The notes beneath the pieces were generated by a model that was given only the letters and a program-made list of their open reading frames with translations, was not told the DNA's origin and did no database searches. A stretch of 64,000 bases of DNA from Massilibacillus massiliensis. GTDB taxonomy: Bacteria > Bacillota > Negativicutes > FLKF01. Of this stretch, positions 39,779 through 62,340 are shown piece after piece; the first letter of the stretch is position 1; every line of letters begins with the position of its first letter. A program made the position numbers and the translations under genes. The stretch is taken from contig NZ_LT575483.1 in assembly GCF_900086705.1 (NCBI RefSeq), positions 1,693,534-1,757,533 on the forward strand, written 5' to 3'.

Positions 39779-40159
39779 TTACCTTCTTGGATAACAGCCA
39801 TATCCCATCCCATAATTAAATCCATAAGGGCGACAATACATTCCATGTCCGCCATAATAATACCTTGGATAACATCCATAAAATACAGGAGGTTGATGTA
39901 TATACCAGCCATATCCACCATAGCCGCCGTATCCATACGGATAGCACATGCCTTTTCTAGGGTGACATACGCCTACCCAACTTTTGCCGGGATAACATTT
40001 TGAAGAACTATATGTGCTATAACTGCTGGCACTGCTGCTGCTCGCTTTACGACCATCAGCATATCCATCAAACTCTTCCCCTTCATCGTCTTGAAAATCA
40101 TCGATTTCCGGGTGTTCCCATTTTGCTCGTTTATCTTCTTCTTTACGTTTATCGGTCAT
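39779..40159 (-). CDS. Gly/Tyr-rich spore-coat-like protein
   Basis: The roughly 126-residue protein has a charged N-terminus (TDKRKEEDKRAKWEHPEIDD), a Ser-rich middle and a C-terminal half rich in Gly, Tyr, Pro and Cys (YGYGGYGGYGWY, YYYGGHGMYCRPYGF). There is no signal peptide. Composition is like CotY/CotT-type coat proteins that form insoluble crosslinked layers. The start is the ATG at 40159 with GAGGTG upstream. The assignment rests on composition and the sporulating context. Confidence 0.6.
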   Translation of the reverse strand: MTDKRKEEDKRAKWEHPEIDDFQDDEGEEFDGYADGRKASSSSASSYSTYSSSKCYPGKSWVGVCHPRKGMCYPYGYGGYGGYGWYIHQPPVFYGCYPRYYYGGHGMYCRPYGFNYGMGYGCYPRR

Positions 40160-40217
40160 ATAAAAACACCTCACTTAAAATACAGTATCAACGCCTACTG
40201 CATAGTATGAAATAAAT

Positions 40218-43169
40218 TCAATTTAAGTGCGCTGTTTTTTGGACATTTTCTCTATAAAGCAATACCTTTCTCACATCATCTTCAGTTACTGCAGTTTTCA
40301 ATCGTGCAATAACTTCATCAGATTGAAAATGTTGATAAAGATACCTAATGTCATCTTTCCCATTCATATCAAGTGCAAGCAAGCAGATAAATTGGGTGCG
40401 CTTTTTTCCCGCCCATAGAATTGGTTTTTCAGTCTTGGCAAACAAAATTGCAGATGTATAAACATATGAACTATCTGCATGCGGCAGCGCTACTGTTTGG
40501 TGTATTAAGTATGCCCCCATTTTCTCTCGTTCTAAAACCGCTTTTTCATACCCTTCTTTTACATAATTCTCATTTATAAGTAACTGACACATTTTTTTCA
40601 ACACTTTGGTTTTCGTATCATATGCTTTCCCTAAGAGCAGAATCTTCACACGCTGAATCACTTGCGGAACTGCATTTACTTTTTCTTCTATCGGCATTGG
40701 TCTGCGCATCGAATGCGCTAATAACTCGGCCAACTGTTCTTTGCCTTCCTTTGACAACAGCATATTCACTGAAAAATAGGGAATGCCTCGAAGCTTTGGG
40801 TCTACACTTCCGACAACAGCTACAATATCATATTGCATTGAAAAGTTCTCAATTTGTTGATCAATATCCTGACTGCCAATGATGCCAACATGTAAATATA
40901 CGACTTCATGCAATTCTTCACCAAACAATTTTTTCAATTGCTCTTTACAGTATAGAGCAACGCCCTCTCCTGTAAAACAAATCGTTAGGATTGCTTTTTT
41001 GCGTAAAAGCAAAGACGTTTTAATATGATTTTTAGGTGAAAGATAATTTAAAGATTCTATCCCCTGCACCACATTCGCCAGATTCGATCCCGGTAAAACA
41101 CTGCGTCTTAAAGCTTCAATCACCATAACGGTATCCACGCGATCCATTGTCTCTACCCGAATTTTAGTTCGCACTTGAATCATTTCTCCAAAAGTAAGCA
41201 AAGAGCCTAAATCTGCAAGAATTAATACCCCTTTTCCTTCATCCGCGTGTCTTACCACAGCACTCAAACGTTCTAATGCCGCACCTGGTTTTTCATCAAA
41301 GCTCATATTAAACGGTTTTCCATGCGTCATATTCAACAATTTATTGGCAATTTCCAACATGCTGCCGCCGACATTTCCATGCGTAGCCACAACCACGCCG
41401 ACGTTTCCTTCTTCTTCTTTCTCATTCCCATGTAAATATAACGCAATATAACTCGTCTCATCCTCAGGTAAATCCATCTGACAACGTTTTTTTATCAAAG
41501 CAACCATTTTTTCCGCAACCGCATATTCTTGCTTAAACTTTCTTTTCACATCTTCCAAATTGGGATTGATAATTTTCTTGCCTTGATTCAATCGGGCAAA
41601 TGTAGCATTTAAATGAATCGCTAAACAATAGACAAGTGATTCATCCAATTTTCCTAATTCAGCTTCGGCAATTTTTAAAACTTCTTGGGCTAAATATATC
41701 GCTTCATCTCCAATTACTTTAGCAACTTCCTGCAAGCTCAACGGCGCTAATCGATGCTTTACATGAACCATAACCCGCTGTAAATTCCGTTTTATTTCAT
41801 CACCGACCAATTCCTTGACCTGTTGTTCATTCATGCCCTTTTGCATACAATTCATATGTAATTTCTCAATAGATCCATAAAACTCTTTTGGAAAACTATA
41901 CACATCCTCCTCAAGCAAAGTTGGCACCTGGCATTGTTTAGGATGAAACAAAAAATCCTTCCAGACAAGACTCTCCAGTGCCTGCCTTTGACTTTGAATC
42001 TTTAACAGCCCTTTCTTTACATATAGGCTAAGCCCCGACAAATCTACTTTTACAGCGTCTTCTTTTTTCGTGACATAGTTTAAAAAACTTTTTGCACAAA
42101 TCACTTGAATATCACTTCTGAGCTGCCCGATATTCCCTTTACAATCATATAAAAGAAAGGCTTTGATCACATCCAATGAAACCTCTAGTTTTGCATTCAT
42201 TCTAGATGATTCATAGCTGAAAAATCTCTGAATAAGCTGAAGCCGTTCTGTTAATGGACGATCAAGCAACGGCGGAAGATGAATCAGCATCGGAATACGC
42301 CGCTTAAAAGTAGCAAGTAAGGCTGTCTCTATATTTTCCGTAGTTGCCGCAATCAGTTGCACATTTGCCTGCCGTGCTGCATACGTTTCACCTAATCGCC
42401 GATAACTCCCTTTATCAATTAAATGAAATAACATTTCTTGGCCTTCTGCTGACAAACGGTGTACTTCATCAAGAAACAAAATACCACCATCCGTTTGTTC
42501 AATCAATCCTTTTCGATCCGTTACCGCACCAGTATAAGCACCCTTTACTGCACCAAAAAGCTGCGTGATTAAAAGTTGTGAATTTTCAGCATAATCTGCG
42601 CAATTTAATACATGAAACGGTGCATTATCCGGCAAACTTCTCGCTTTTAAAGCAAAGCGATACATCGCCTCGACTAACTCACTTTTTCCAACCCCAGTCT
42701 CGCCAACAATCAAACAATGTAAGCCATGCGGTGGATAGAGCATGGTCGCCTTCGCTTGCTGAATCAGGGGATTTAGACTCCCGCCTACGCCAACTAGATT
42801 CGCAAAGGCATCCTGCTCTGTACCTTCTTCTTCATCGCGCTCTGCACAAGCTAAATCTTCTGCGGGGTCTTGGCGCATATGCGCTGTTTTTATATATTTA
42901 TTTAGTAAATAAATTGATAAAGAATAACCTTTTTTTCTTAATGTTTCCTGCATTTCCTGCTTTGAATACGCTTTGTTCCTCTGCATCATACGCTGCATTT
43001 CCTCATAAATATAGGCTTGTTTCCGCTCTCTAGAATCTTGTATTTTTAACTCCTTACGCAATGAAGTAACATACTCCCGACTGACCAAAAACTTTTTTGC
43101 CAGAGCTGTATCCGTATATGGTTGATTATGATCTTCCTCGGCAATGTATTGTTGGATTTGTTTTCTCAT
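40218..43169 (-). CDS. LevR-type sigma-54 activator with RpoN-box-like N-terminus and EIIA-Fru C-terminus
   Basis: The 983-residue protein has in order: residues 4-50 resembling the sigma-54 RpoN-box DNA-binding domain (IAEEDHNQPYTDTALAKKF, LKIQDSRERK); a sigma-54 AAA domain with GETGVGKS at 156, GAYTGA at 210 and LFLDE at 231; a PRD; an EIIA-Man-like domain (GVVVATHGNVGGSML); an EIIB-Gat-like domain; and a final EIIA-Fru domain with phosphorylatable His in VALPHAD. Classical LevR proteins end in a second PRD. GAYTGA replaces GAFTGA. The ATG at 43169 follows AGGAGG. No PTS genes are adjacent, so its target is unknown. Confidence 0.85.
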   Translation of the reverse strand: MRKQIQQYIAEEDHNQPYTDTALAKKFLVSREYVTSLRKELKIQDSRERKQAYIYEEMQRMMQRNKAYSKQEMQETLRKKGYSLSIYLLNKYIKTAHMRQDPAEDLACAERDEEEGTEQDAFANLVGVGGSLNPLIQQAKATMLYPPHGLHCLIVGETGVGKSELVEAMYRFALKARSLPDNAPFHVLNCADYAENSQLLITQLFGAVKGAYTGAVTDRKGLIEQTDGGILFLDEVHRLSAEGQEMLFHLIDKGSYRRLGETYAARQANVQLIAATTENIETALLATFKRRIPMLIHLPPLLDRPLTERLQLIQRFFSYESSRMNAKLEVSLDVIKAFLLYDCKGNIGQLRSDIQVICAKSFLNYVTKKEDAVKVDLSGLSLYVKKGLLKIQSQRQALESLVWKDFLFHPKQCQVPTLLEEDVYSFPKEFYGSIEKLHMNCMQKGMNEQQVKELVGDEIKRNLQRVMVHVKHRLAPLSLQEVAKVIGDEAIYLAQEVLKIAEAELGKLDESLVYCLAIHLNATFARLNQGKKIINPNLEDVKRKFKQEYAVAEKMVALIKKRCQMDLPEDETSYIALYLHGNEKEEEGNVGVVVATHGNVGGSMLEIANKLLNMTHGKPFNMSFDEKPGAALERLSAVVRHADEGKGVLILADLGSLLTFGEMIQVRTKIRVETMDRVDTVMVIEALRRSVLPGSNLANVVQGIESLNYLSPKNHIKTSLLLRKKAILTICFTGEGVALYCKEQLKKLFGEELHEVVYLHVGIIGSQDIDQQIENFSMQYDIVAVVGSVDPKLRGIPYFSVNMLLSKEGKEQLAELLAHSMRRPMPIEEKVNAVPQVIQRVKILLLGKAYDTKTKVLKKMCQLLINENYVKEGYEKAVLEREKMGAYLIHQTVALPHADSSYVYTSAILFAKTEKPILWAGKKRTQFICLLALDMNGKDDIRYLYQHFQSDEVIARLKTAVTEDDVRKVLLYRENVQKTAHLN

Positions 43170-43346
43170 CATTTCCCTCCTGAATGATTGATTATGTAAA
43201 CTCATAAAGTAAAAAATCTGAATCTACATAATTTTAATCTTCCATAAGTTCTACATTTAAACATCCTCATCTTTTTACCTTCAAAGAGTCCAGCAAAAAC
43301 AAATAAACACCACGCTCTTATTGTGATGCAATCTCTCAAATATAAA

Positions 43347-43372
43347 AGGAGACTACCTTCAGCAGTCTCCCA
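43347..43372 (-). terminator. Short terminator of the chemoreceptor gene
   Basis: GGAGACT pairs with AGTCTCC, extended by G-U pairs; on the minus strand TTTTATAT follows. Confidence 0.55.
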
Positions 43373-43413
43373 AGTTCTTTCATTGCATGCATCGCTCTAT
43401 TTTATAGTTTCAT

Positions 43414-44595
43414 TTATTTTACTTCACTTAGCTGTCTTGTGACTTCTACCAGATGATTGCTGCTTGCTTTCATATGATCTAACGCAGTGAATATACCTTG
43501 TATTGCTTGGCTTTCCTTCTGTGAATCTGTTGCCATCTTCACAAACAATTCTTTATTTGCTGTCATACTTCCAGATAAATCTTTTAAGGGCTGCACAATC
43601 TCTTGTGTTGAATTTTGAATCTCTTCAACCGCACGATAAATCGTTTCTGTCGATTTTTGACTTTCAACTGCCAATTTACCCACTTCGCGTGCAACAACAG
43701 AAAAACCGCGTCCTAATTCGCCCACACGCGCCGCCTCTATCGTAGCATTCAATGCCAGCAAATTTGTTTCACTCGAAATATGTTTTATCGTATCCACGAT
43801 TTTACCGATATTTTTTGCGGCATCAACAAGAATTGTTGATAAACCACTAATTTGCGACAGCTGCTCTATCCCTAAATTCATTTTTTCATTTAAAGCTCGA
43901 AAAGACGCCGTCTCTTCCTCAAATGCTTGTCCTACTGCTGCAACGACTTCACTAATATGATGAATTTGCTCAGATAACGCATTTGAACTGTTTTGGACGT
44001 TCCCCGCTAGTTGCCGATATTCGAATAAACTAACCCAACGCATTAGCGCACAAGCAGCTTCAACATTCAACACTCGTTTTGCAACAATTAATTGTACATT
44101 TGATTTTAGTACATGCCGATATTTAGTTAAATATCCGCCTGCTCCTACGATTGTTTCAATTCCAACAAGATACTCCGCTGTTTCCAACGCTGCAGTAACT
44201 TCGCGTTCCGAAATTTCATCATAAGGAATCAGTTTAAAATTAATATGATGAATTCCCATATCTTCACAATAACGTACAAGCTGCTTCGCGTAACTTGTTG
44301 AGTTATTGAAGACATACACATCCTGCCCCGCTGGAACCTGCGCCAACGCAACAAAAAATTCTCCTGCTGGTACCATATCTACACCGACAAGTTTGTCACT
44401 AGAAACTTTTTGTGAGGTTTCTGCTATTCGTGAAGAAACGCATACGACAAGATCTTCGGTGATGTCATGACCAATTTCTTTAAAAGCACAAGCTCTTCCT
44501 TGCATGTTTTTTCCCATAACCGGTTTTATCGCAGCCAAAAGCTCTTCAGCAATTGCTTTACCACCTGCAACTGTTAAGACACGAATATTTTCCAC
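43414..44595 (-). CDS. Soluble methyl-accepting chemoreceptor-like protein
   Basis: The 393-residue protein lacks membrane helices. The C-terminal half is an MCP signalling domain with the hairpin tip [33 protein letters not shown] (slightly altered around [11 protein letters not shown]) and coiled-coil flanks. Residues 1-190 form an unfamiliar alpha/beta sensor with [35 protein letters not shown] and [15 protein letters not shown]. The start is GTG with GTAGGAG nine bases upstream. The ligand is unknown. No che genes are near. Confidence 0.8.
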
Positions 44596-44980: not shown

Positions 44981-45811
44981 TTAAAACGCAGGCAAAATCG
45001 CCCCTTTATATTTCTCGTTGATGAATTTCTTTACTTCTTCAGATTTCATTGCTTTTACAAGCTTTTGAATTTCAGGACGATTTTCATCACCTTGGCGTGC
45101 AACTAGAATATTTACATAAGGAGAATCGTTTTGTTCAATAAACAACGCATCTTTGGAAGGTGTCAAATTGGCTTCCAATGCATAGTTCGTATTTATGACT
45201 GCAATTGTAACATCATCTAAAGAACGAGGAATCTGTGCCGCTTCTAATTCTTTAAAGCTTAACTTTTTATCATTTTGTACTACATCAGCAACAGTTCCAT
45301 TAATTCCAACGCCATCTTTTAATGTAATAAGCCCAGCTTTCGCTAAAAGTGCCAACGCACGACCGCCATTGGTTGGATCATTTGGTATTGCTACGGAACT
45401 GCCTTCAGCAAGTTCCTCTAATTTTTTCACTTTCTTTGAATAAATCCCCATTGGTTCGATATGAATCCCTGCAACATTGACTAATTTTAAATTACGTTCT
45501 GCAGCAAATTTTTCTAAATAAGGCGTATGTTGAAAATAGTTTGCATCTAACTCCTTATCCGCAACTGCTAAATTCGGCTGCACATAATCACTGAACTCAA
45601 CAATTTGTAAATCAATTCCCTCTTTTGCAAGCAAAGGTTTTACAACTTCCAAAATTTCAGCGTGTGGTACTGCTGTAGCACCAACTTTTAATACAGTTTT
45701 TGCAGATGAATCTGCGCCTTTATCCGCTGCCGGAGCCTCAGATTTACCACAACCAGCTACAGCAAAAACCACCATCAACAAAGTAACAAGCAATAAACCA
45801 ATCTTCCTCAT
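44981..45811 (-). CDS. metQ: Methionine ABC transporter substrate-binding lipoprotein (second copy)
   Basis: The protein has a lipoprotein signal (LLLVTLLMVVFAVAGCGKS) and the NlpA/MetQ fold: KVGATAVPHAEILEVVKPLL, VEFSDYVQPNLAVADKELDANYFQHTPYL, SVAIPNDPTNGGRALALLAKAGLI. It binds methionine outside the inner membrane. The ATG at 45811 follows GGGGGTAGGA. A gap of about 150 bases after metI contains a possible TATAAT-like -10 on the minus strand, so it may also be transcribed on its own. Confidence 0.93.
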   Translation of the reverse strand: MRKIGLLLVTLLMVVFAVAGCGKSEAPAADKGADSSAKTVLKVGATAVPHAEILEVVKPLLAKEGIDLQIVEFSDYVQPNLAVADKELDANYFQHTPYLEKFAAERNLKLVNVAGIHIEPMGIYSKKVKKLEELAEGSSVAIPNDPTNGGRALALLAKAGLITLKDGVGINGTVADVVQNDKKLSFKELEAAQIPRSLDDVTIAVINTNYALEANLTPSKDALFIEQNDSPYVNILVARQGDENRPEIQKLVKAMKSEEVKKFINEKYKGAILPAF

Positions 45812-45962
45812 TGTTCCTACCCCCATTTATAATTTGTCTGCAGACTAGCATTTAGATAAAAATTATACTCTAAACCAAGTCTTACTTTATCTCAAGATAA
45901 AAAAGTCTCCCTACCTTGCACCTGCATGAGAACCTCTTTCATCCTTAGATTTCGAATTATTT

Positions 45963-46616
45963 CTAGCGTTTGTTTAGACGTCTGGAAATCGCATCACCAA
46001 TAGATTGCACCAGTTGTACTTGAATAATTAAAATAATGACGGTTGCAAGCATAACATCACCGCGGAAACGTTGATATCCATAACGAATTGCCAGATCTCC
46101 TAGCCCACCGCCGCCGATTGCACCAGCCATTGCCGAATAGCCAATTAAGCTGATAATCGTAATCGTAATTCCAGAAATTAAGGAAGGCATTGCTTCCGGC
46201 AATAGCACATGCCAGATAATCTGCATCGGCGTTGCCCCCATCGCTTTAGCGGCCTCAATCACGCCATACTCAACTTCTTTTAAAGAAGTTTCTACTAAAC
46301 GCCCCACGAATGGAATGGCAGCAATGGTAAGTGGCACCATTGCTGCAGTGGTACCAATCGATGTGCCAACAATCATCCTCGTAAGTGGAATAATTGCTAC
46401 CATTAAAATAATAAACGGTGTTGACCTCGCTGCGTTAACAACAGCGCCCAAAACGCGATTTATCGTCAAATTTTCTAAAATATGTCCCTTATCTGTAGTT
46501 ACTAGAATAACGCCGAGCGGAATTCCTACGATTGCCGAAATCAGGGAAGATACGAAGACCATATAGGTTGTTTCGCCAAGTGCCTTCACAAGCAACATAA
46601 CCATATCAGCTGACAT
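45963..46616 (-). CDS. metI: Methionine ABC transporter permease
   Basis: The 217-residue protein has about five membrane helices and the permease EAA loop VIEAAKAMGATPMQIIWHVLLPEAMPSLISG. RSTPFIILMVAIIPLTR is typical of MetI. The start is the ATG at 46616, seven bases after GAGGTG; an upstream TTG lacks spacing. It overlaps the metN stop by 11 bases. Confidence 0.95.
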   Translation of the reverse strand: MSADMVMLLVKALGETTYMVFVSSLISAIVGIPLGVILVTTDKGHILENLTINRVLGAVVNAARSTPFIILMVAIIPLTRMIVGTSIGTTAAMVPLTIAAIPFVGRLVETSLKEVEYGVIEAAKAMGATPMQIIWHVLLPEAMPSLISGITITIISLIGYSAMAGAIGGGGLGDLAIRYGYQRFRGDVMLATVIILIIQVQLVQSIGDAISRRLNKR

Positions 46617-47643
46617 AGCCAATCACCTCAATTCCCAGATTTCTATCTTGTAAGTATTTCAATGCCTTTTCAATTTCGGCATCTTCACCTGTGATCTCAA
46701 GTACCAAAGTTCCATACGGCGTATTTTTAATATGATCGACATTGCCATAAATGATATTTGTATCTACCTGAAATCTACGAATCACACCAGAAATAACAGG
46801 CTCATCTGCCGAATCACCGATAAACGATAACCGTACCAATAAATTACTGCCTGGAACTGGAGTTTTCGATATCTCGGCATTTTTAAACGCTTCCGGTATA
46901 TCGCGATTGATAATTACACTAATAAATTCTTTTGTAATCTCGGCCTGAGGATTTGTAAAAACTTCTAAAACCGTACCTTCTTCTGCAATTACCCCATTTT
47001 CAATAACAGCGACCTTATCACAGATCTCTTTAATTACCTGCATCTCATGCGTAATCAATACAACGGTTAACTGCAATTTTTGGTTAATATCCTTTATCAA
47101 TGCCAGAATAGATTTGGTCGTTTGCGGATCAAGCGCCGAGGTCGCTTCATCACAAAGCAATACTTTAGGATCACTGGCAAGCGCTCTCGCAATCCCTACA
47201 CGCTGCTTCTGACCACCAGAAAGCTGTGCTGGATACTGGTCTCTTTTATCTGCCAGCCCGACGAGTTCTAATAATGGTAAAACTTTTTTTTCAATTTCTA
47301 CCTTACTCATACCAATGAGTCTCAAAGGAAACGCAATATTATCATACACAGTTGCGGAAGACAACAAATTAAAATGTTGAAAAATCATGCCAATATTTTT
47401 ACGTGCAGCTCTAAGCTGGCTCGCATTCATTGCAGTTAAATCTTCACCATCCACGACGACTATCCCTTTTGTCGGTTTTTCCAGCATATTGATACAACGA
47501 ATTAAGGTACTTTTTCCTGCACCACTAAGTCCAATCACACCGTAAATCTCGCCGCGCTTTACATGAAGATTGATCCCCTTAAGCGCGTGGATTGGGCCTG
47601 ATGCACCATCATATGTCTTTTCTATAGTAGAAAGTTTAATCAC
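46606..47643 (-). CDS. metN: Methionine ABC transporter ATP-binding protein
   Basis: The 345-residue ATPase has Walker A GLSGAGKST, signature LSGGQKQR, Walker B VLLCDEATSALDP and the switch His in ITHEM, followed by a C-terminal NIL (ferredoxin-like) domain from about residue 265 (VRLSFIGDSADEPVISGVIRRF) that binds methionine to inhibit transport. The start is GTG with AAAGGAG 11 bases upstream. It forms the importer with MetI and the two MetQ proteins. Confidence 0.96.
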   Translation of the reverse strand: MIKLSTIEKTYDGASGPIHALKGINLHVKRGEIYGVIGLSGAGKSTLIRCINMLEKPTKGIVVVDGEDLTAMNASQLRAARKNIGMIFQHFNLLSSATVYDNIAFPLRLIGMSKVEIEKKVLPLLELVGLADKRDQYPAQLSGGQKQRVGIARALASDPKVLLCDEATSALDPQTTKSILALIKDINQKLQLTVVLITHEMQVIKEICDKVAVIENGVIAEEGTVLEVFTNPQAEITKEFISVIINRDIPEAFKNAEISKTPVPGSNLLVRLSFIGDSADEPVISGVIRRFQVDTNIIYGNVDHIKNTPYGTLVLEITGEDAEIEKALKYLQDRNLGIEVIGYVS

Positions 47644-47668
47644 TTACGTTCACTGCTCCTTTTACGAC

Positions 47669-48490
47669 TTACCAAGCTGCGATTGTCGAGCCTTTAAAAT
47701 GCTCATCAATAAATGCTTTTACTTCATCCGATTGATATGCTTTTATGAATTTTTTATACACTGGATTATCCTTGTCTTTAGACTGCACTGCAATAACGTT
47801 TGCATATGGAGAATTTGCATCTTCCATCGCCAAAGAATCTTTTGTTGGCACTAACCCTGCTACAATTGCAAAATTTGTATTGATTACTGCAAGATCCACG
47901 TCCTTCAAGGAAAGTGGTACTTGTGCTGCTTCTAACTCTTTAATTTGCAGATTTTTAGGATTTTCAGCAATATCTGCTGCAGTAGCACTAAGCCCAGCGT
48001 TTGGCTTTAGTTTAATTAAGCCAACCTTTTCTAACAACAACAATGCCCGGCCGCCATTTGTCGGATCATTTGGAATTGATACGATAGAACCATCTTTTAC
48101 ATCTGCAATCGCTTTTACCTTCTGCGAATAGATACCAATTGGGAAAATCACTGTTTTGGCAACACTTTCGATCTTATAGCCACGATCGTTTACCTGTGCA
48201 TCTAAGAACGGCTGATGTTGATAACTGTTTAAATCAATTTCACCCTGACTAAGTGCCATATTTGGCTGCACATAATCATTAAATTCAATAATTTCAACAT
48301 TAAGTCCATCTTTTTCCGCTACTTTTTTAACTGCTTCTAGAATTTCAGCATGCGGTCCTGCCGTCACGCCCACTTTAATAGATTTTTTCTCCGATTTAGC
48401 AGCATCTTGATCTGCTCCGCAACCTGCAAACACGACCATGCTGAAGATCGCCAGCACTGCGATTATCAATAATTTCAGTTGTTTTGACAT
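47669..48490 (-). CDS. metQ: Methionine ABC transporter substrate-binding lipoprotein (first copy)
   Basis: The 273-residue protein has a lipobox VVFAGCG after a short signal peptide, and NlpA/MetQ motifs KVGVTAGPHAEILEAVKKVA, VEIIEFNDYVQPNMALSQGEIDLNSYQHQPFL and VSIPNDPTNGGRALLLLEKVGLIKL. It is first in the operon, directly behind the SAM riboswitch, with GGAGG before its ATG. It differs from the second copy mainly in the middle region, so ligand preference may differ. Confidence 0.95.
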   Translation of the reverse strand: MSKQLKLLIIAVLAIFSMVVFAGCGADQDAAKSEKKSIKVGVTAGPHAEILEAVKKVAEKDGLNVEIIEFNDYVQPNMALSQGEIDLNSYQHQPFLDAQVNDRGYKIESVAKTVIFPIGIYSQKVKAIADVKDGSIVSIPNDPTNGGRALLLLEKVGLIKLKPNAGLSATAADIAENPKNLQIKELEAAQVPLSLKDVDLAVINTNFAIVAGLVPTKDSLAMEDANSPYANVIAVQSKDKDNPVYKKFIKAYQSDEVKAFIDEHFKGSTIAAW

Positions 48491-55617: not shown

Positions 55618-58431
55618 TTATTTTACATCATCTTTTACATGAACTCTGCTTGGCAAACTGCTTAAAAAATAACAAATCTCGGCATCCGGCACCTCAAGCA
55701 ATAGCTTCATTCCTTCATTGCCTACAACCCTCTGCAAATACAAAAATTCATCCTGTCTTTCCTTTTGAATCTGCTGACTCCAATCCGGTGTTTGCAACGC
55801 TTGCTTCGAATGAACCCGATCAAACATACACGCCGCATGTAAATAAATACGAATCATTGCATCTTGTGTAATTGCCTCATCAAAAAAGTACTCCGCTATT
55901 TTTTCAACCAAGTTTTTACAACATACAGCAACTTTTTTCACAGACAAACTTTTGACAAACTTACTCAATTGCCCCGCTAACACTTCATAAACATCCGTTA
56001 TCACAGGTCTCTCTTCAATTGGTAATTCTCCCTCTAGGATGTCAAGCTGCAACAAATTCTCGACACGTTTCAATCCTTCTTTAGAGAATAATTCACTGAC
56101 ATGAACAAATGGGACGTGTTTCACTTTTGGCTCAATACTCCCAATGATCAGATGCAGTTTATCCCCTAAATTCCCCTGAATTTCCTCGACATCTTGCATC
56201 GCTCCAGCTGTAATAAAGTGCATTCCTTTCATACTCGGCACATGATTTCGTAGAATTTCCTTAATCTGCTCTGCTACCCCTTCACCGCTTGCACAGGTAA
56301 TCAGAATCGTCCCTTTTAGTTCCGCCACAGAATTGGTAGGATACCTTCTTTGCCGTAATGTCATCGTATACTCATCATACGCTTCATAAATATGCGCAAC
56401 GGCCTGCTCCAAAGTCTCATCCGTCGTCAATACACGACGACCAGCCTCCAGTACCAATGCAGTTGTTACATTTGGGATGATTTTAACCGGCACTTTAGTT
56501 TCTTTCACCAGCATATTTTCCATTGTAACTAAAAAGCCCATATCTACAAGTACAATCACACCACTGCCTTGATTACGCTTGATAATCACCTCTTGCAGTT
56601 CTTCTACCGTTTGTGCGTTGCTTCTATTGAGCGGGATATCATATGCTTTCACATGATCGGTTCCTAATAAATTATTTGCAACTTCCGCCATGCTTTGCGC
56701 GGTTCCCCGTCCATGCGCGGCAATAATCATTCCAATTCTCGGCTTTAGCGGTTCTTCACAGCCATGAATTAAAAACATCGCAATAAACCCAAGCTCATCC
56801 GGCGATATATCTGTCTGCAGTTTGGCAGATAACAAATCGATATGATCCAGTACTACCTGATATGCCGCTTCATGCTCTGCTTTAATCATTTTTAAATTCG
56901 GATTATAAATAATCCGCCCAGAAATCACGCGTTCTCTAAACTGTTGCAAGTGTAATGCCAGCGCAACCAAGGTTCTTCGACCATATTTTCTTTTCAACTT
57001 ACTCGCGGCATCATTTAATAAAACATTGGCCGTTTCCCAAATATTCTGCTCTATGATGCTGACCGGCATATCGGCTGCATCAGCCTTTGCCAAAGATTGC
57101 GCAGCGGAGCCAAAATATTTTTCTAAATCTTTGCCGACTTTTTCTTCGATCTCTTCATCTGATATTTCCATTTTACGATAACTATTAATTTTTTTGTCCA
57201 CATACTCGTATAAATCCCGATGCAAATCATAGTCGTTAACTGCTCCGTTGATCATCATTTCTCCATCGGGCTCAATCAAAATACCTTCTCTGAACAGCCG
57301 ATTGATTGCATCATCAAGCACGGTTTGATTTCTTACCATAGAAAAAATCCGCTGTGGAATCGCATCAACATCCACGGTTAATTTATCATGCGCAGCCGCT
57401 AAACTCGATAAATAGCTTTTTGCACAACAAAGCTGCAGATCATTACGGAGTTCCCCAATATTTGCCGGACAATTATAGTGCGTAAAAGTCTCCAAGGCCT
57501 GTCCGGAAATAAAGATCGGTACCCCTAGGCGAATCGCTTCCTGACGAACAAAATGAACAATTAAACGAATCCTCTCGTTAATCGGTCGTTCATTAATTCT
57601 CGGCAACGTAATCTGCACAGGAATCCTCCGCCGAAATGTGAGTAAAAGAGAACTCGATATATCCTCAGAGGTAGCACCAATAATCATCAACTGTGCCTTC
57701 CGCTCTCCCCGCGTTTCTCCCAATCGGCGATAAACGCCTTTATCTACCAACATAAAAAGTAGTTCTTGTCCAGTCGAAGGCAAGCGATGAATTTCATCTA
57801 AAAATAAAATGCCACCTTTTGCGCGATCTACCACGCCTTCATGATCTTCATTCGCTCCTGTAAAAGCACCTTTTACATAACCAAACAATTGTGCCAGCAA
57901 TAGCTGCGCATTATCTGCATAATCGGCACAACCAAACGTAATAAACGGAACCGACTCTTTCGTCGTCCACATTTCTGTTGCATACTTCCACATCGCTTCA
58001 GCCAGTAAATTCTTTCCGACTCCACTTTCACCGCAGATTAACGTATGCAAACCATTTGGCGGATATACAATCGCTGCTTTCGCCAATTCTATCTGTGCTT
58101 TTATACTGCCACCACTGCCAACAATACCTGAAAATGCAGTTGGTTGAACCGTATGCAAAGTTTTCTTTAAATTTTGAATTTTTAAATTGGGCTCTTTTTC
58201 AACTTTTTTATGCATATACGTACGCTCACGATTGCCAATCGCATAGTATAAAACCGGCCTAGTACCAGTTTTTTCGATATACCCCAATTTATATAATTTA
58301 TTCAAATCGGCCGATGCATCGCTGCGATGGATATTCAACTCCAATGCCACTGTAGCCGCATTTACACCTTTTCTAGAAGCTTCGTCCGTACAGGACTCTA
58401 CATATTCCATTACTCTATCAATTCTAGCCAT
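55618..58431 (-). CDS. LevR-type sigma-54 activator of the PTS operon
   Basis: The 937-residue protein has an N-terminal winged helix (residues 1-65), a sigma-54 AAA domain with GESGVGKN at 134, GAFTGA at 188 and LFLDEIHR, a PRD, an EIIA-Man-like domain (MIIAAHGRGTAQSMAEV), an EIIB-Gat-like domain and a second PRD near the end (RIYLHAACMFDRV). This is the classical LevR order. Phosphorylation of PRD His residues by the PTS should set activity. It lies downstream of the mannose-type PTS genes in the same direction and probably activates their -24/-12 promoter beyond the right edge. Confidence 0.93.
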   Translation of the reverse strand: MARIDRVMEYVESCTDEASRKGVNAATVALELNIHRSDASADLNKLYKLGYIEKTGTRPVLYYAIGNRERTYMHKKVEKEPNLKIQNLKKTLHTVQPTAFSGIVGSGGSIKAQIELAKAAIVYPPNGLHTLICGESGVGKNLLAEAMWKYATEMWTTKESVPFITFGCADYADNAQLLLAQLFGYVKGAFTGANEDHEGVVDRAKGGILFLDEIHRLPSTGQELLFMLVDKGVYRRLGETRGERKAQLMIIGATSEDISSSLLLTFRRRIPVQITLPRINERPINERIRLIVHFVRQEAIRLGVPIFISGQALETFTHYNCPANIGELRNDLQLCCAKSYLSSLAAAHDKLTVDVDAIPQRIFSMVRNQTVLDDAINRLFREGILIEPDGEMMINGAVNDYDLHRDLYEYVDKKINSYRKMEISDEEIEEKVGKDLEKYFGSAAQSLAKADAADMPVSIIEQNIWETANVLLNDAASKLKRKYGRRTLVALALHLQQFRERVISGRIIYNPNLKMIKAEHEAAYQVVLDHIDLLSAKLQTDISPDELGFIAMFLIHGCEEPLKPRIGMIIAAHGRGTAQSMAEVANNLLGTDHVKAYDIPLNRSNAQTVEELQEVIIKRNQGSGVIVLVDMGFLVTMENMLVKETKVPVKIIPNVTTALVLEAGRRVLTTDETLEQAVAHIYEAYDEYTMTLRQRRYPTNSVAELKGTILITCASGEGVAEQIKEILRNHVPSMKGMHFITAGAMQDVEEIQGNLGDKLHLIIGSIEPKVKHVPFVHVSELFSKEGLKRVENLLQLDILEGELPIEERPVITDVYEVLAGQLSKFVKSLSVKKVAVCCKNLVEKIAEYFFDEAITQDAMIRIYLHAACMFDRVHSKQALQTPDWSQQIQKERQDEFLYLQRVVGNEGMKLLLEVPDAEICYFLSSLPSRVHVKDDVK

Positions 58432-58524: not shown

Positions 58525-59583
58525 CTAACGGCAATTCTTTGAACGTAAATTTATTCCATACGCTTTCGATATTTCCTCTAACTCTTGCACAATTTCGCTT
58601 GATAAACCAATTCCTTCTTTTCGCAGCCTTTTCTCTAGGTTTTGCTCACGTTCACCAGGAAGGTAAATTTCACTGACACCATCTATTTTATCTGTATTTT
58701 TTATCATCTGACAAAAACTTTCGATACGATCATAATATGAATCTAACGATATAAATGCATCTGCTTTTACAATCATAAAAAAATGACCAACGTCCGCTTT
58801 AGTCTCCCCATTCTTGTAAGCCGCAACCTCAGTGCCAAATTGTGCATTCGTTATGATACCACTTAGCAAATCCACTGCCATAGACAGAGCATACCCTTTT
58901 GGACCCGCCATAGGAAGGATCATGCCCATAAGTGCTTCATTAGGATCTGTTGTTATATTTCCCTTTTGATCCATAGCCCAACCTTCCGGTATTTCAATTC
59001 CCTTTTTCGCAGCAGAAATAATTTTACCTCGCGCAACGACACTCGTCGCCATATCTATGATGATTGGACACTGCTCTTTTCTCGGAAAACCAAAAGCAAT
59101 TGGATTCGTTCCCAGGCAAGCCTTCTTTCCACCCCAAGGTGCCAGTGCTGCTAAAGCATTTGTCAAGCCGATGCTGATATAATTCTTCTTTGCCGCAATC
59201 TCACAATAAAATCCAGCCATGCCAAAATGATTGCTATTATTTACGCCCACTGCACAAATGCCAAATTCATCCGCGATCTGCAATGCCTCATCTAAAGCTT
59301 TACACATAACCGCTGCACCAAGACCATTATCACCATCTATGGTCAGCAACGCAGGCCATGGTTTTTGTACTTTAATCTTCGGGGTTGGATTGATCGTATT
59401 ATTTTTAATGCGCATAAGATATCTAGATAAACGGCTTATCCCGTGTGTAGAAATTCCCCAAAGTTCGGCTTTTAATAAATTATCCGCAACCTTATCGCTA
59501 TCATCCAATGGCACTCCAACCTTGCAAAAACATTGTATGATAAACTTTTTTAATTCTTCCTCAGAAAACAGTATATGATTCAT
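58525..59583 (-). CDS. Ldh-family (malate/L-lactate/ureidoglycolate type) NAD(P)H-dependent oxidoreductase
   Basis: The 352-residue protein has AELWGISTHGISRLSRY, VGVNNSNHFGMAGFYCEIAAKKNYISIGLTNALAALAPWGGKKACLGTNPIAFGFPR, DMATSVVARGKI and GPKGYALSMAVDLLSG, diagnostic for the LDH2/MDHG family (YiaK, AllD, ComC). These reduce 2-keto acids such as diketogulonate. In this operon it probably acts on a keto-sugar acid. It follows EIID across an intercistronic hairpin and has an AGGAAGG site. Confidence 0.92.
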   Translation of the reverse strand: MNHILFSEEELKKFIIQCFCKVGVPLDDSDKVADNLLKAELWGISTHGISRLSRYLMRIKNNTINPTPKIKVQKPWPALLTIDGDNGLGAAVMCKALDEALQIADEFGICAVGVNNSNHFGMAGFYCEIAAKKNYISIGLTNALAALAPWGGKKACLGTNPIAFGFPRKEQCPIIIDMATSVVARGKIISAAKKGIEIPEGWAMDQKGNITTDPNEALMGMILPMAGPKGYALSMAVDLLSGIITNAQFGTEVAAYKNGETKADVGHFFMIVKADAFISLDSYYDRIESFCQMIKNTDKIDGVSEIYLPGEREQNLEKRLRKEGIGLSSEIVQELEEISKAYGINLRSKNCR

Positions 59584-59682: not shown

Positions 59683-60513
59683 TTATTTAATAAGCCCCAA
59701 TGCACCACCGGCTAAAGCGAAAACAAATAATGCTAAAAGCACGGTAACGACGCGGTATCCTCGCATAATCGCCTGCCAGCTCACAACGGTGATTGCAAGC
59801 GGCAATATTTTCGGTACGATTTTATCCATCATATCCTTAATTACAATTTCTTTTCCACCTAAAACCGGTGCCCAGGCAAAATCCACTGTAATGAATTTAC
59901 ATACCATAATCCCGAGAACAAACAAGCCCATAATTGAGAAGAAAGTTGTTAACTTTTTAAACAATCCACCTTCTAAAATTGCAGTAACAGCAGTCGTCCC
60001 CAATTGATAACCCTTTTTGATACTAAGTCTTGTAATCGTGTAATCATAACCAAGCATTGCACAAGCAAAGACAATCGGCCCCATAATACTGCCTGACGCT
60101 GCCCAGCCTAAACAGATACCGAGAATGACTGGTTTGTACAACGCACCAGAAATTGTATCACCAATCCCTGCAAGTGGTCCCATAAGTGACGATTTCAAAT
60201 CGATGATCGTCGATTCATCAATATCGCCGCCCTTTGCCTTTTGTTCTTCCAAAGCAATAACAATTCCATGAATCACCGCACCCCAGCGCGGTTCTGTATT
60301 AAAAAATATCATATGCCGTTTTAAACCAGCTACAACCTGATCGTGATCATTTGGATATAATTTTTTCAGAAGCGGCCCCATCATAGATGCGAACCCGCCC
60401 GCCTGCATTCTTTGATAATTATAGGCTAAATGGCTCATAATCCACCAACGGAAAATTGCAAATTCAAGATCCAGTTTAGATAATCCGATTTCAGCTGTTT
60501 TGTTATTTGCCAT
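59683..60513 (-). CDS. Mannose-family PTS EIID component
   Basis: The 276-residue membrane protein has LEFAIFRWWIMSHLAYNYQRMQAGGFASMMGPLLKKLY, MIFFNTEPRWGAVIHGIVIALEEQKAKG and SSLMGPLAGIGDTISGAL, standard for EIID of the mannose family. With EIIC it forms the sugar channel. Its ATG overlaps the EIIC stop (TAATG), with the ribosome site inside EIIC. Confidence 0.96.
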   Translation of the reverse strand: MANNKTAEIGLSKLDLEFAIFRWWIMSHLAYNYQRMQAGGFASMMGPLLKKLYPNDHDQVVAGLKRHMIFFNTEPRWGAVIHGIVIALEEQKAKGGDIDESTIIDLKSSLMGPLAGIGDTISGALYKPVILGICLGWAASGSIMGPIVFACAMLGYDYTITRLSIKKGYQLGTTAVTAILEGGLFKKLTTFFSIMGLFVLGIMVCKFITVDFAWAPVLGGKEIVIKDMMDKIVPKILPLAITVVSWQAIMRGYRVVTVLLALFVFALAGGALGLIK

Positions 60514-61283
60514 TATATTTCATCCTCCTCATCATGCATTTGGTTACCAGCATTTGCAGGTTCTGGCTGCAAGGAAATATACACATATCCCATAGCAGCA
60601 CCTAAAAATGCAGCAAACAATAAATTGTTCATTCCCGTAAATGCGCTAATTGCAAATCCTACACCGAAAAATACCAATAAGTCCTTACGTGCCATATATT
60701 TTAATAACATTGCAATACCAACTGCCGGTAATACCTTACCTACGGTATTAAAACCTGCAACCCCCCAAGCAGGAATCGCTGCAAGAAGACCTTCAATCAC
60801 TGGCGGACCATAATAAGCAGCCAAAAATGCCGGAATCCCTCTTACTAAAATAACAACAAATTGCGAAGGAACCGCTTGCAGAATCATCAGTTTCTTTATA
60901 TCGCCTTTTTCTGCACATTTATCCTGCAAAGAAGGAATCGCCGAGTTTGCCGACATAAATAAAATCCATGCATAATTACCAATAACACCGATCGACACTG
61001 CCATTACAACAGCCTGTTCCGTACTAATATTACTTTGAATTGCAACGGCTGTCCCCAAAAGTCCAGCTGAATACAAATCTGACGGATTCGCTCCACCTGT
61101 GCTGTTCCAACCTAAAAATGCCACATTAATCGCCGCACCAATGATCATACCCTCTATCGGTTGTCCATAAATAACGCCGACCCAAAAACCTGCCATAATC
61201 GGCTCGCGAATCAGCCACCAACCCAGTGGATTCGATGAACTTTGCAGCCAGCCTAAAATCCCGATCATAATTGCTTCAATCAT
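60513..61283 (-). CDS. Mannose-family PTS EIIC component
   Basis: The 257-residue membrane protein has LIREPIMAGFWVGVIYGQPIEGMIIGAAINVAFLGWNSTGGANPSDLYSAGLLGTAVAI and the mannose-family EIIC helices. It ends in an acidic MHDEEDEI that holds the EIID ribosome site. The ATG at 61283 follows GGAGGG; six extra upstream codons have no site. Substrate likely a sugar acid from its neighbours. Confidence 0.95.
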   Translation of the reverse strand: MIEAIMIGILGWLQSSSNPLGWWLIREPIMAGFWVGVIYGQPIEGMIIGAAINVAFLGWNSTGGANPSDLYSAGLLGTAVAIQSNISTEQAVVMAVSIGVIGNYAWILFMSANSAIPSLQDKCAEKGDIKKLMILQAVPSQFVVILVRGIPAFLAAYYGPPVIEGLLAAIPAWGVAGFNTVGKVLPAVGIAMLLKYMARKDLLVFFGVGFAISAFTGMNNLLFAAFLGAAMGYVYISLQPEPANAGNQMHDEEDEI

Positions 61284-61370
61284 GAAATATTCCCTCCTCA
61301 AATCATTACAAAATCTAGCTTTACGAATGCCTTATTTTATTTGCTAGGAATCACTACACTATCTCTACGA

Positions 61371-61853
61371 TTAGAAACTTATATTAACTGATTTATAATC
61401 CATTTTCTTATCTTCTGGCGTCGCTTGGAAAAATACGTTTACTTTTTCTACCATCTTCTTAATCAATTCATTATCTTCTTCATTCAATGTCATATTCAAA
61501 TACACCGCTTTGCGTCCAGGACCTGCACCTAACCCGCCAATCTGCAAATCTTCAATCGGAAATCCTTTTTCCCAAGTTGCGTAAGTGGTAGGAATATCTT
61601 TAAATAAAATAATTGCTTTCCCTTCACCCAATTGATTTTTATTCCACGCTGCAATAAAACGATCAATTCCCACAATACTGCATTTTACATCTGAAGGCAT
61701 TGCCATCCGATAAATATTACTCATCACAGGGTCCTTTGATAAATTATCATTTACGATAATAATCTTCGTTGCTTGCGTATCCTTCAACCATCTTGCCACG
61801 ACTTGTCCATGAATTAATCGAAAATCAACTCTAATTAAAGAAATTTTAGCCAT
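61371..61853 (-). CDS. Mannose-family PTS EIIB component
   Basis: The 160-residue cytosolic protein has His15 in RVDFRLIHGQVV, the phosphorylation site, and KGFPIEDLQIGGLGAGPGRKAVYLNMTL. It takes phosphate from EIIA and passes it to the incoming sugar. It is a separate protein, not fused to EIIA. Confidence 0.96.
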   Translation of the reverse strand: MAKISLIRVDFRLIHGQVVARWLKDTQATKIIIVNDNLSKDPVMSNIYRMAMPSDVKCSIVGIDRFIAAWNKNQLGEGKAIILFKDIPTTYATWEKGFPIEDLQIGGLGAGPGRKAVYLNMTLNEEDNELIKKMVEKVNVFFQATPEDKKMDYKSVNISF

Positions 61854-61874
61854 CTACACTCACTCTTTCTACTT

Positions 61875-62312
61875 TTATATTGAATCGTCTTCTACTTTTT
61901 GAATTTCAAGCTCTGTTAAAATATTTTTACAACCTGATTTTCCAGATTGTATCACAGCCTCTGCCAACTCTTCACCACGCATACTAAAGCGTAAAGAAAG
62001 TGCCTCAATCAGCATGCATAAGTTTACCCCGGCAACGGCAGCAATTTTTCTCTGACTTGCGACGGCCGCCGAAACATTGGACGGTGTGCCGCCAAACAAA
62101 TCACTCATGATCAATGACCCTTCAGGCATCGTATCTAAAATTGTCTGCACATCGATAATTAAATCCGCTGGATCCATTCCCGGTAACAAAGACAAAGCTT
62201 TCACATTTTCCTGGGCACCGACGATCATCTCAGCACTCTTTATAAGTTCCTCTCCAAAAATCCCGTGTGTTATTACAAGAATTCCTGGAATCGCATGTTG
62301 ATATTCTGACAT
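61875..62312 (-). CDS. Mannose-family PTS EIIA component
   Basis: The 145-residue protein has the phosphorylatable His16 in LVITHGIFGEELI and MSDLFGGTPSNVSAA, as in the EIIA-Man fold. The start is the ATG at 62312 with GGAGGAA upstream. It lies 20 bp before EIIB. A C-terminal Cys-containing segment (SGKSGCKNIL) is uncommon. Confidence 0.94.
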   Translation of the reverse strand: MSEYQHAIPGILVITHGIFGEELIKSAEMIVGAQENVKALSLLPGMDPADLIIDVQTILDTMPEGSLIMSDLFGGTPSNVSAAVASQRKIAAVAGVNLCMLIEALSLRFSMRGEELAEAVIQSGKSGCKNILTELEIQKVEDDSI

Positions 62313-62340
62313 ACAAAATTCCTCCATTTAGACGTTTTGC

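Follow-up and report, generated by a model that had tools for sequence, protein, structure and literature searches.

Sigma-54 works together with AAA+ activators, and in the textbook account of this partnership the two contact different DNA through parts that are unrelated. Activators of the LevR/CelR type consist of an N-terminal DNA-binding head, an AAA+ domain with a GAFTGA-type loop, PRD1, an EIIA-Man domain, an EIIB-Gat-like region and a C-terminal PRD2; they are controlled by PTS phosphorylation and act at -24/-12 promoters provided with UAS elements. This control through PTS phosphorylation has been published, and the Discussion of the same paper, citing Deutscher (2014), mentions LevR-like regulators in which PRD2 is replaced by an EIIA-Mtl-like domain (PMC10864463). 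Regulators of the MtlR/LicR type differ in having two PRDs and no sigma-54 central domain (PMC10864463). In sigma-54 itself (RpoN), the RpoN box comprises residues 454–463 (PMC2680985), and either of the replacements R455A or R456A abolishes binding to the -24 element (PMC7175178).

The gene described here lies in the window, the 64,000-nucleotide stretch of Massilibacillus massiliensis DNA that was analysed. Its product belongs to a sub-family with most of the features listed above for LevR/CelR-type activators, the EIIB-Gat-like region by position, but with the ordinary head exchanged for a tandem of RpoN-box-like modules and PRD2 for an EIIA-2 tail. The LevR-like regulators with an EIIA-Mtl-like domain have the same tail swap and very likely belong to the same sub-family; where that paper mentions them, the head is not called RpoN-like (PMC10864463). 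The tail swap is already known, whereas a RpoN-like head on an activator is without description in the open-licence papers searched. The heads are matched by Pfam itself, and the architecture may therefore be on record in domain databases.

Domain Organization of the Activator

The coding sequence (40218–43169, minus strand; ORF translation, Pfam, NCBIfam) specifies a PTS-controlled sigma-54 activator of 983 aa, a variant of the LevR type; an in-frame ATG upstream, at 43205, is a possible alternative start that would give 995 aa. All features of the gene given below are on the minus strand. The head is made up of module 1 (residues 1–51, 43017–43169), a RpoN-box-like helix-turn-helix with a basic SRERK tail found by Pfam, hhalign and Foldseek, and module 2 (residues 52–97, 42879–43016), a weaker RpoN-box-like helix-turn-helix found by hhalign. 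The AAA+ sigma-54 interaction domain follows (residues 134–286, 42312–42770; Pfam Sigma54_activat, 131.5 bits), with K162 in Walker A, D234/E235 in Walker B and R290/R291 just past the domain end. Its sigma-54 contact loop, of the GAFTGA type by motif and alignment, reads GAYTGA (residues 210–215, 42525–42542), as an earlier note on this DNA had observed.

As in other LevR-type proteins, the AAA+ domain is succeeded by PRD1 (residues 496–581, 41427–41684), which carries His519, and then by an EIIA-Man-like domain (residues 591–690, 41100–41399) with His597, both detected by Pfam. The EIIB-Gat-like region (about residues 722–815, 40725–41006), which includes Cys731, has no separate Pfam match and is placed by the LevR/DagR domain order; the alignment to the DagR model reaches residue 823. 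The protein ends in an EIIA-2 (Fru/Mtl-type) tail (Pfam PTS_EIIA_2, residues 845–970, 40260–40637) with His897 in the sequence VALPHAD. Pfam finds no PRD2 at the C-terminus, in agreement with the proposal that an EIIA-Fru domain has replaced the C-terminal PRD; the mid-protein PRD at 496–581 had been omitted from that proposal. With EIIA-2 where PRD2 is expected, the protein is filed as a variant of the LevR-type activators. The best NCBIfam model is DagR, at 431.8 bits against a curated cut-off of 1400, so that the protein does not qualify as a DagR equivalog. Nor is it a sigma-54 factor itself, as Pfam detects no other sigma-54 regions (activator-interacting or core-binding) in it.

Distribution and Conserved Residues of the Sub-family

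Twelve LevR-type proteins, matched over most of their length, are present in the M. massiliensis genome. Besides the window protein, four of these have the same head and an EIIA-2 tail: L002, which is 70% identical to the window protein, L003, L004 and L006; the remaining seven have an ordinary head. Searches of the family and the order to which this organism belongs gave matches in its own genome only. When 398 genomes were sampled evenly across the phylum, a match was present in 30, of which 28 lie outside the class, one genome (G388) with a 72-aa frame only. Two families had matches in 8 of 9 and 8 of 13 genomes, respectively. The nearest named relative, at 55%, is from Propionispora sp. 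2/2-37.

The RpoN-like head and an EIIA-2-like tail occur together in all 46 full-length members, five of which were used for building the model, and in none of the seven ordinary paralogues. The sub-family is spread through Bacillota with its head always coupled to an EIIA-2 tail. The Walker residues, R290/R291, His519, His597, Cys731 and His897 are invariant in the 46 members. The contact loop is GAFTGA in 32, GAYTGA in five, and GAFSGA and GSFTGA in four each, with one missed by the search pattern. The suggestion that the protein senses the PTS by a different route is supported by the EIIA-2 tail and the retention of every phospho-acceptor site.

Relation of the Head to the RpoN Box of Sigma-54

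Module 1 of the window protein is homologous to the RpoN-box domain of sigma-54, which reads the -24 element. Positions 105–160 of the Pfam model Sigma54_DBD (PF04552) align with residues 1–51. With the whole protein as query the score, 17.3 bits, falls short of the 22.8 bits that Pfam requires; it passes this cut-off when the N-terminus alone (24.3 bits) or the genomic frame (25.8 bits) is scanned. A search of the whole genome with PF04552 gave RpoN, encoded separately at G000:C6:1111936-1112409 (190.6 bits), and, over the cut-off, exactly the five activators named above, with scores from 36.4 down to 22.9 bits; it did not retrieve any of the seven ordinary LevR-type proteins. A sub-threshold Sigma54_DBD match of 13.3 bits also occurs in a 218-aa open frame (L019, G000:C6:229655-229810).

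Among 27 family N-termini scanned out of 58, Sigma54_DBD matched all 27 (best E-value 4.7e-11) and was the sole family to do so; the runner-up matched 10. Profile comparison with hhalign, the kind of check proposed by the earlier note, gave a probability of 99.4 and a score of 94.2 over 50 columns for module 1 against the RpoN box. The match spans the whole domain including the basic tail, and the score was still 90.3 with just seven rows. By comparison, 100 column shuffles gave a mean of 9.6 and a maximum of 15.4, the reversed profile 7.8, and the ordinary LevR-type N-termini of the same genome 11.9. Against full-length RpoN, module 1 prefers the RpoN box to the -12 helix-turn-helix (100.3 vs. 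23.1). Reciprocally, a profile of five N-termini run over 380 genomes of the class retrieved many other activators and then short stretches at the C-terminal end of sigma-54-sized frames, with E-values down to 3e-11. These frames were taken as RpoN: all extracted rows are 428–515 aa long with a C-terminal match, except L071, which has 358 aa. The sequence sets, drawn from part of the profile hits, comprise 67 distinct N-termini (58 without near-copies) and 27 RpoN C-termini (26 without near-copies).

The structure of residues 1–100 was predicted with AlphaFold2 from a two-row alignment (pLDDT 87.8), and its six predicted helices may be assigned to two modules of three helices each. In the PDB, sigma-54 structures took all of the ten top places with Foldseek, led by the complex of the RpoN domain with the -24 element (2o8k; rmsd 1.5, 34% identity, probability 1.00), yet the E-value of this best match was only 0.046. 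With VIA, 2o8k gave a Z-score of 5.2 and an rmsd of 1.4 over 51 residues, a middling score that is mixed with those of AraC-type and SelB tandem helix-turn-helices. The likeness of the N-terminal 50 residues to RpoN noticed at the outset is thereby upheld by family search, profile comparison and predicted structure.

The RpoN-box letters, and with them the class A equivalents of R455 and R456, were assigned by an alignment with the RpoN rows and by the ARRTVAKYR numbering. Module 1 aligns with the C-terminal RpoN-box domain (2o8k) along its length and basic tail, and on this assignment its first arginine is kept in 58 of 58 sequences. It differs from the RpoN box in being five residues shorter before the recognition helix, in the second position, which is never arginine (0 of 58; RE in 44), in standing off the sigma factor and in being present as two copies. 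In the window protein the two positions are occupied by RE (module 1) and IY (module 2); among the 58 sequences, module 2 has RR in three.

The second copy was called weaker by the earlier note, and it is real yet weaker. With hhalign, module 2 matches the RpoN box with a probability of 97.1 and a score of 45.5 (shuffle maximum 15.9, reversed 9.0), and in full-length RpoN it scores 47.6 on the RpoN box against 14.5 on the -12 helix-turn-helix. When module 2 alone was scanned with Pfam, Sigma54_DBD was found in 5 of 25 members, behind the transposase family HTH_Tnp_Tc3_2 in 10 of 25, which makes the second copy the weaker claim; the module 2 of the window protein gave no Sigma54_DBD match. Module 2 is probably derived from the RpoN-box domain or shares an ancestor with it, to judge by these profiles. 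Modules 1 and 2 compared directly score 18.3 (shuffle maximum 13.7), a weak value by which internal duplication is likely, though unproven.

A joint takeover of the -12 and -24 domains of sigma-54 was also considered, as VIA-align superposes the entire model on sigma-54 from about residue 342 to 469, at Z-scores up to 6.6. It was rejected: the sequence match of either module to the -12 helix-turn-helix is poor (23.1 and 14.5), and AraC-type and SelB tandems score alike. When 95 module 1 sequences were placed in a tree together with 27 RpoN rows, one branch split the activators from RpoN (support 100/96), so that only one change is required and repeated capture of the RpoN box was rejected. The tree has 52 columns and is midpoint rooted, and for this reason it does not give the direction of the transfer.

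Promoters and Upstream Elements

Many genes of the family are directly preceded by a -24/-12 site: 38 of 67 loci in the class set and 24 of 36 in the phylum and family set, both of which include own-genome copies, with approximately 0.03 expected per set from shuffles. For the score of a site, we chose the weights by hand on the basis of the known consensus. These sites indicate that many of the regulators are themselves sigma-54 dependent and probably autoregulated. The upstream region of the window gene (43170–43430), examined by site scan and alignment, has neither a -24/-12 site nor the ATGTAAR repeats of its 70% paralogue. Sigma-70-type promoters and terminators around the window gene were no more frequent than in shuffles (15 vs. 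12.2 and 3 vs. 2.1, respectively).

In the clade of the window protein, the paired element ATGTAAR-N15-ATGTAAR, with a spacing of 22 bp, is found exact and in the same place before three orthologues, L016 (the same locus as L002), L047 and L048, with 0 of 300 shuffles for each, and the sequence around it is 66–77% identical among the three. The pair was rejected as a family-wide element: at the other nine loci tested the best matches have 2–4 mismatches, four in the case of the window gene, and the sister clades tested have no exact pair. The sole exact pair in the M. massiliensis genome precedes L002. If one mismatch is tolerated, the count rises to 19, compared to 13 for a control pattern, and the pair alone is therefore no predictor of a regulon.

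A clostridial clade has a conserved UAS, TGGCAT-N3-WTGTGG, present with at most one mismatch in 5 of 6 loci of the family in which it was defined and in 6 of 9 loci of a second family, the rest of which have 2, 2 and 3 mismatches; the count omits L156 and L179, which are near-copies of L155. Because this UAS is at the same time imperfectly palindromic, and several of the promoters in this clade have a similar word (TTGCATAAAATGTG) across their -12 element, its likeness to a -24 element may be incidental. In the upstream regions of L155–L160, L169, L170 and L179–L184, several clostridial promoters carry a copy of the UAS-like word (GCATAAAATGTG) that lies across their -12 element, as though the regulator or some other factor might bind the promoter as well.

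Genomic Context and a Paralogue

The ten neighbouring proteins scanned around the window gene include a LysA-like protein, a MetQ/MetI/MetN/MetQ cluster, a chemotaxis-type protein and a histidine kinase, and none is a PTS protein, which bears out the remark that the gene has no PTS neighbour. In the methionine ABC transporter cluster (44981–48490, minus strand), MetI and MetN lie between two MetQ lipoproteins. Directly downstream of the activator, at 39779–40174 on the minus strand, is a gene for a 131-aa protein rich in Ser, Tyr and Gly that has no Pfam or NCBIfam match and may be coat-like. Elsewhere in the window, a second LevR-type sigma-54 activator (55618–58431, minus strand) combines a head of the ordinary kind with a PRD-like region at the C-terminus; it is upstream of a dehydrogenase gene (58525–59583) and of what appears, by eye from the translations, to be a mannose-family PTS operon (59683–62327).

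The 70% identity of L002 to the window protein extends over 980 aa, and the recognition helix of module 1 is near-identical in the two. Downstream of L002 are genes for EIIA-2, PTS_IIB, EIIC-GAT, two zinc dehydrogenases, a split transketolase and RpiB, a Gat-type PTS operon whose content would fit the use of a pentitol or hexitol. From no more than this identity and the similar recognition helices, the Gat-type PTS operon of L002 is named as the probable target that the window gene, an orphan paralogue, would control in trans.

Proposed Mechanism and Alternatives

We consider it likely that the window gene encodes an orphan LevR-type activator whose tandem RpoN-box-derived head tethers it to a UAS, whose activity is controlled by PTS phosphorylation and which acts in trans on the operon of its paralogue. 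The observations behind this reading are the domain order, the homology of module 1, the invariance of the catalytic and acceptor residues and the conservation of upstream elements. The head would tether the activator to upstream sites, in the window clade presumably the ATGTAAR repeats 22 bp apart, some 55–85 bp above the -24 element of the Gat-type PTS operon, and would be unlikely to recognise the -24 element. With its GAYTGA loop, the AAA+ ring would remodel the sigma-54 holoenzyme. Activity would be set by PTS phosphorylation at His519 (PRD1), His597 (EIIA-Man), Cys731 (EIIB) and His897 (EIIA-2), each with a presumed sign, and the EIIA-2 tail may assume the inhibitory role held by PRD2 in LevR and CelR. 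The window copy, being without the autoregulatory promoter of its paralogue, would probably act in trans on the putative target beside L002.

The earlier note had the head bind promoter -24 elements directly, and in that event it would compete or cooperate with the sigma-54 holoenzyme. Homology to the -24-reading domain and the -24-like hexamer of the clostridial UAS speak for such binding. The RE and IY found in place of the arginine pair (RR in 0 of 58 for module 1) and the ATGTAAR repeats at 22 bp, conserved in the window clade instead of TGGCAC, disfavour it, as does the loss of -24 binding in RpoN when either arginine is changed to alanine (PMC7175178); the claim finds no support here, and we hold it to be highly improbable for the window protein. 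A weaker, related form is rather unlikely: a sigma-54 domain would have been captured and duplicated by its own activators, part of the family would still read a -24-like code, with the clostridial enhancer a -24 hexamer without a working -12, and the change of R456 to E or D would separate the specificities while the window clade drifted to ATGTAAR. If this were true, the letters recognised by the activator at the enhancer would be related to those recognised by the sigma factor at the promoter. That small helix-turn-helix domains have converged, with no common ancestry, could be argued from the shortness of such domains, the resemblance of module 2 to further families and the middling structural Z-scores. 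Against it, the match covers the full domain and basic tail, stands far above the shuffles, the -12 helix-turn-helix and the ordinary LevR heads, and involves the one family that matched all 27 N-termini; convergence is already largely refuted for module 1, and for the likeness as a whole we judge it highly improbable.

Two further alternatives concern the role of the window copy. It is quite unlikely to be a copy of the L002 regulator that is decaying and serves no purpose at present, as might be suggested by its lack of a PTS neighbour and of the promoter and UAS of its paralogue, for the frame of 983 codons is unbroken and no catalytic or acceptor residue has been lost. It might instead be a partner or antagonist of the paralogue in mixed AAA+ rings, a proposal with which the extent of their identity and their near-identical recognition helices would be compatible and which we regard as very unlikely. 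Trans action of an orphan activator on the paralogue's operon is the reading that we prefer.

Significance

The head of this activator is homologous to the promoter-reading domain of sigma-54, so that the activator and the factor that it activates share a DNA-reading part. This raises the question of how a small fold that served to read the promoter (-24) may be adapted to an enhancer, and of whether either protein might occupy or mistake the sites of the other. The sub-family comes with predicted UAS elements. The combination of a RpoN-like head with an EIIA-2 tail is a clean marker for a widespread and poorly annotated group of PTS-controlled regulators.
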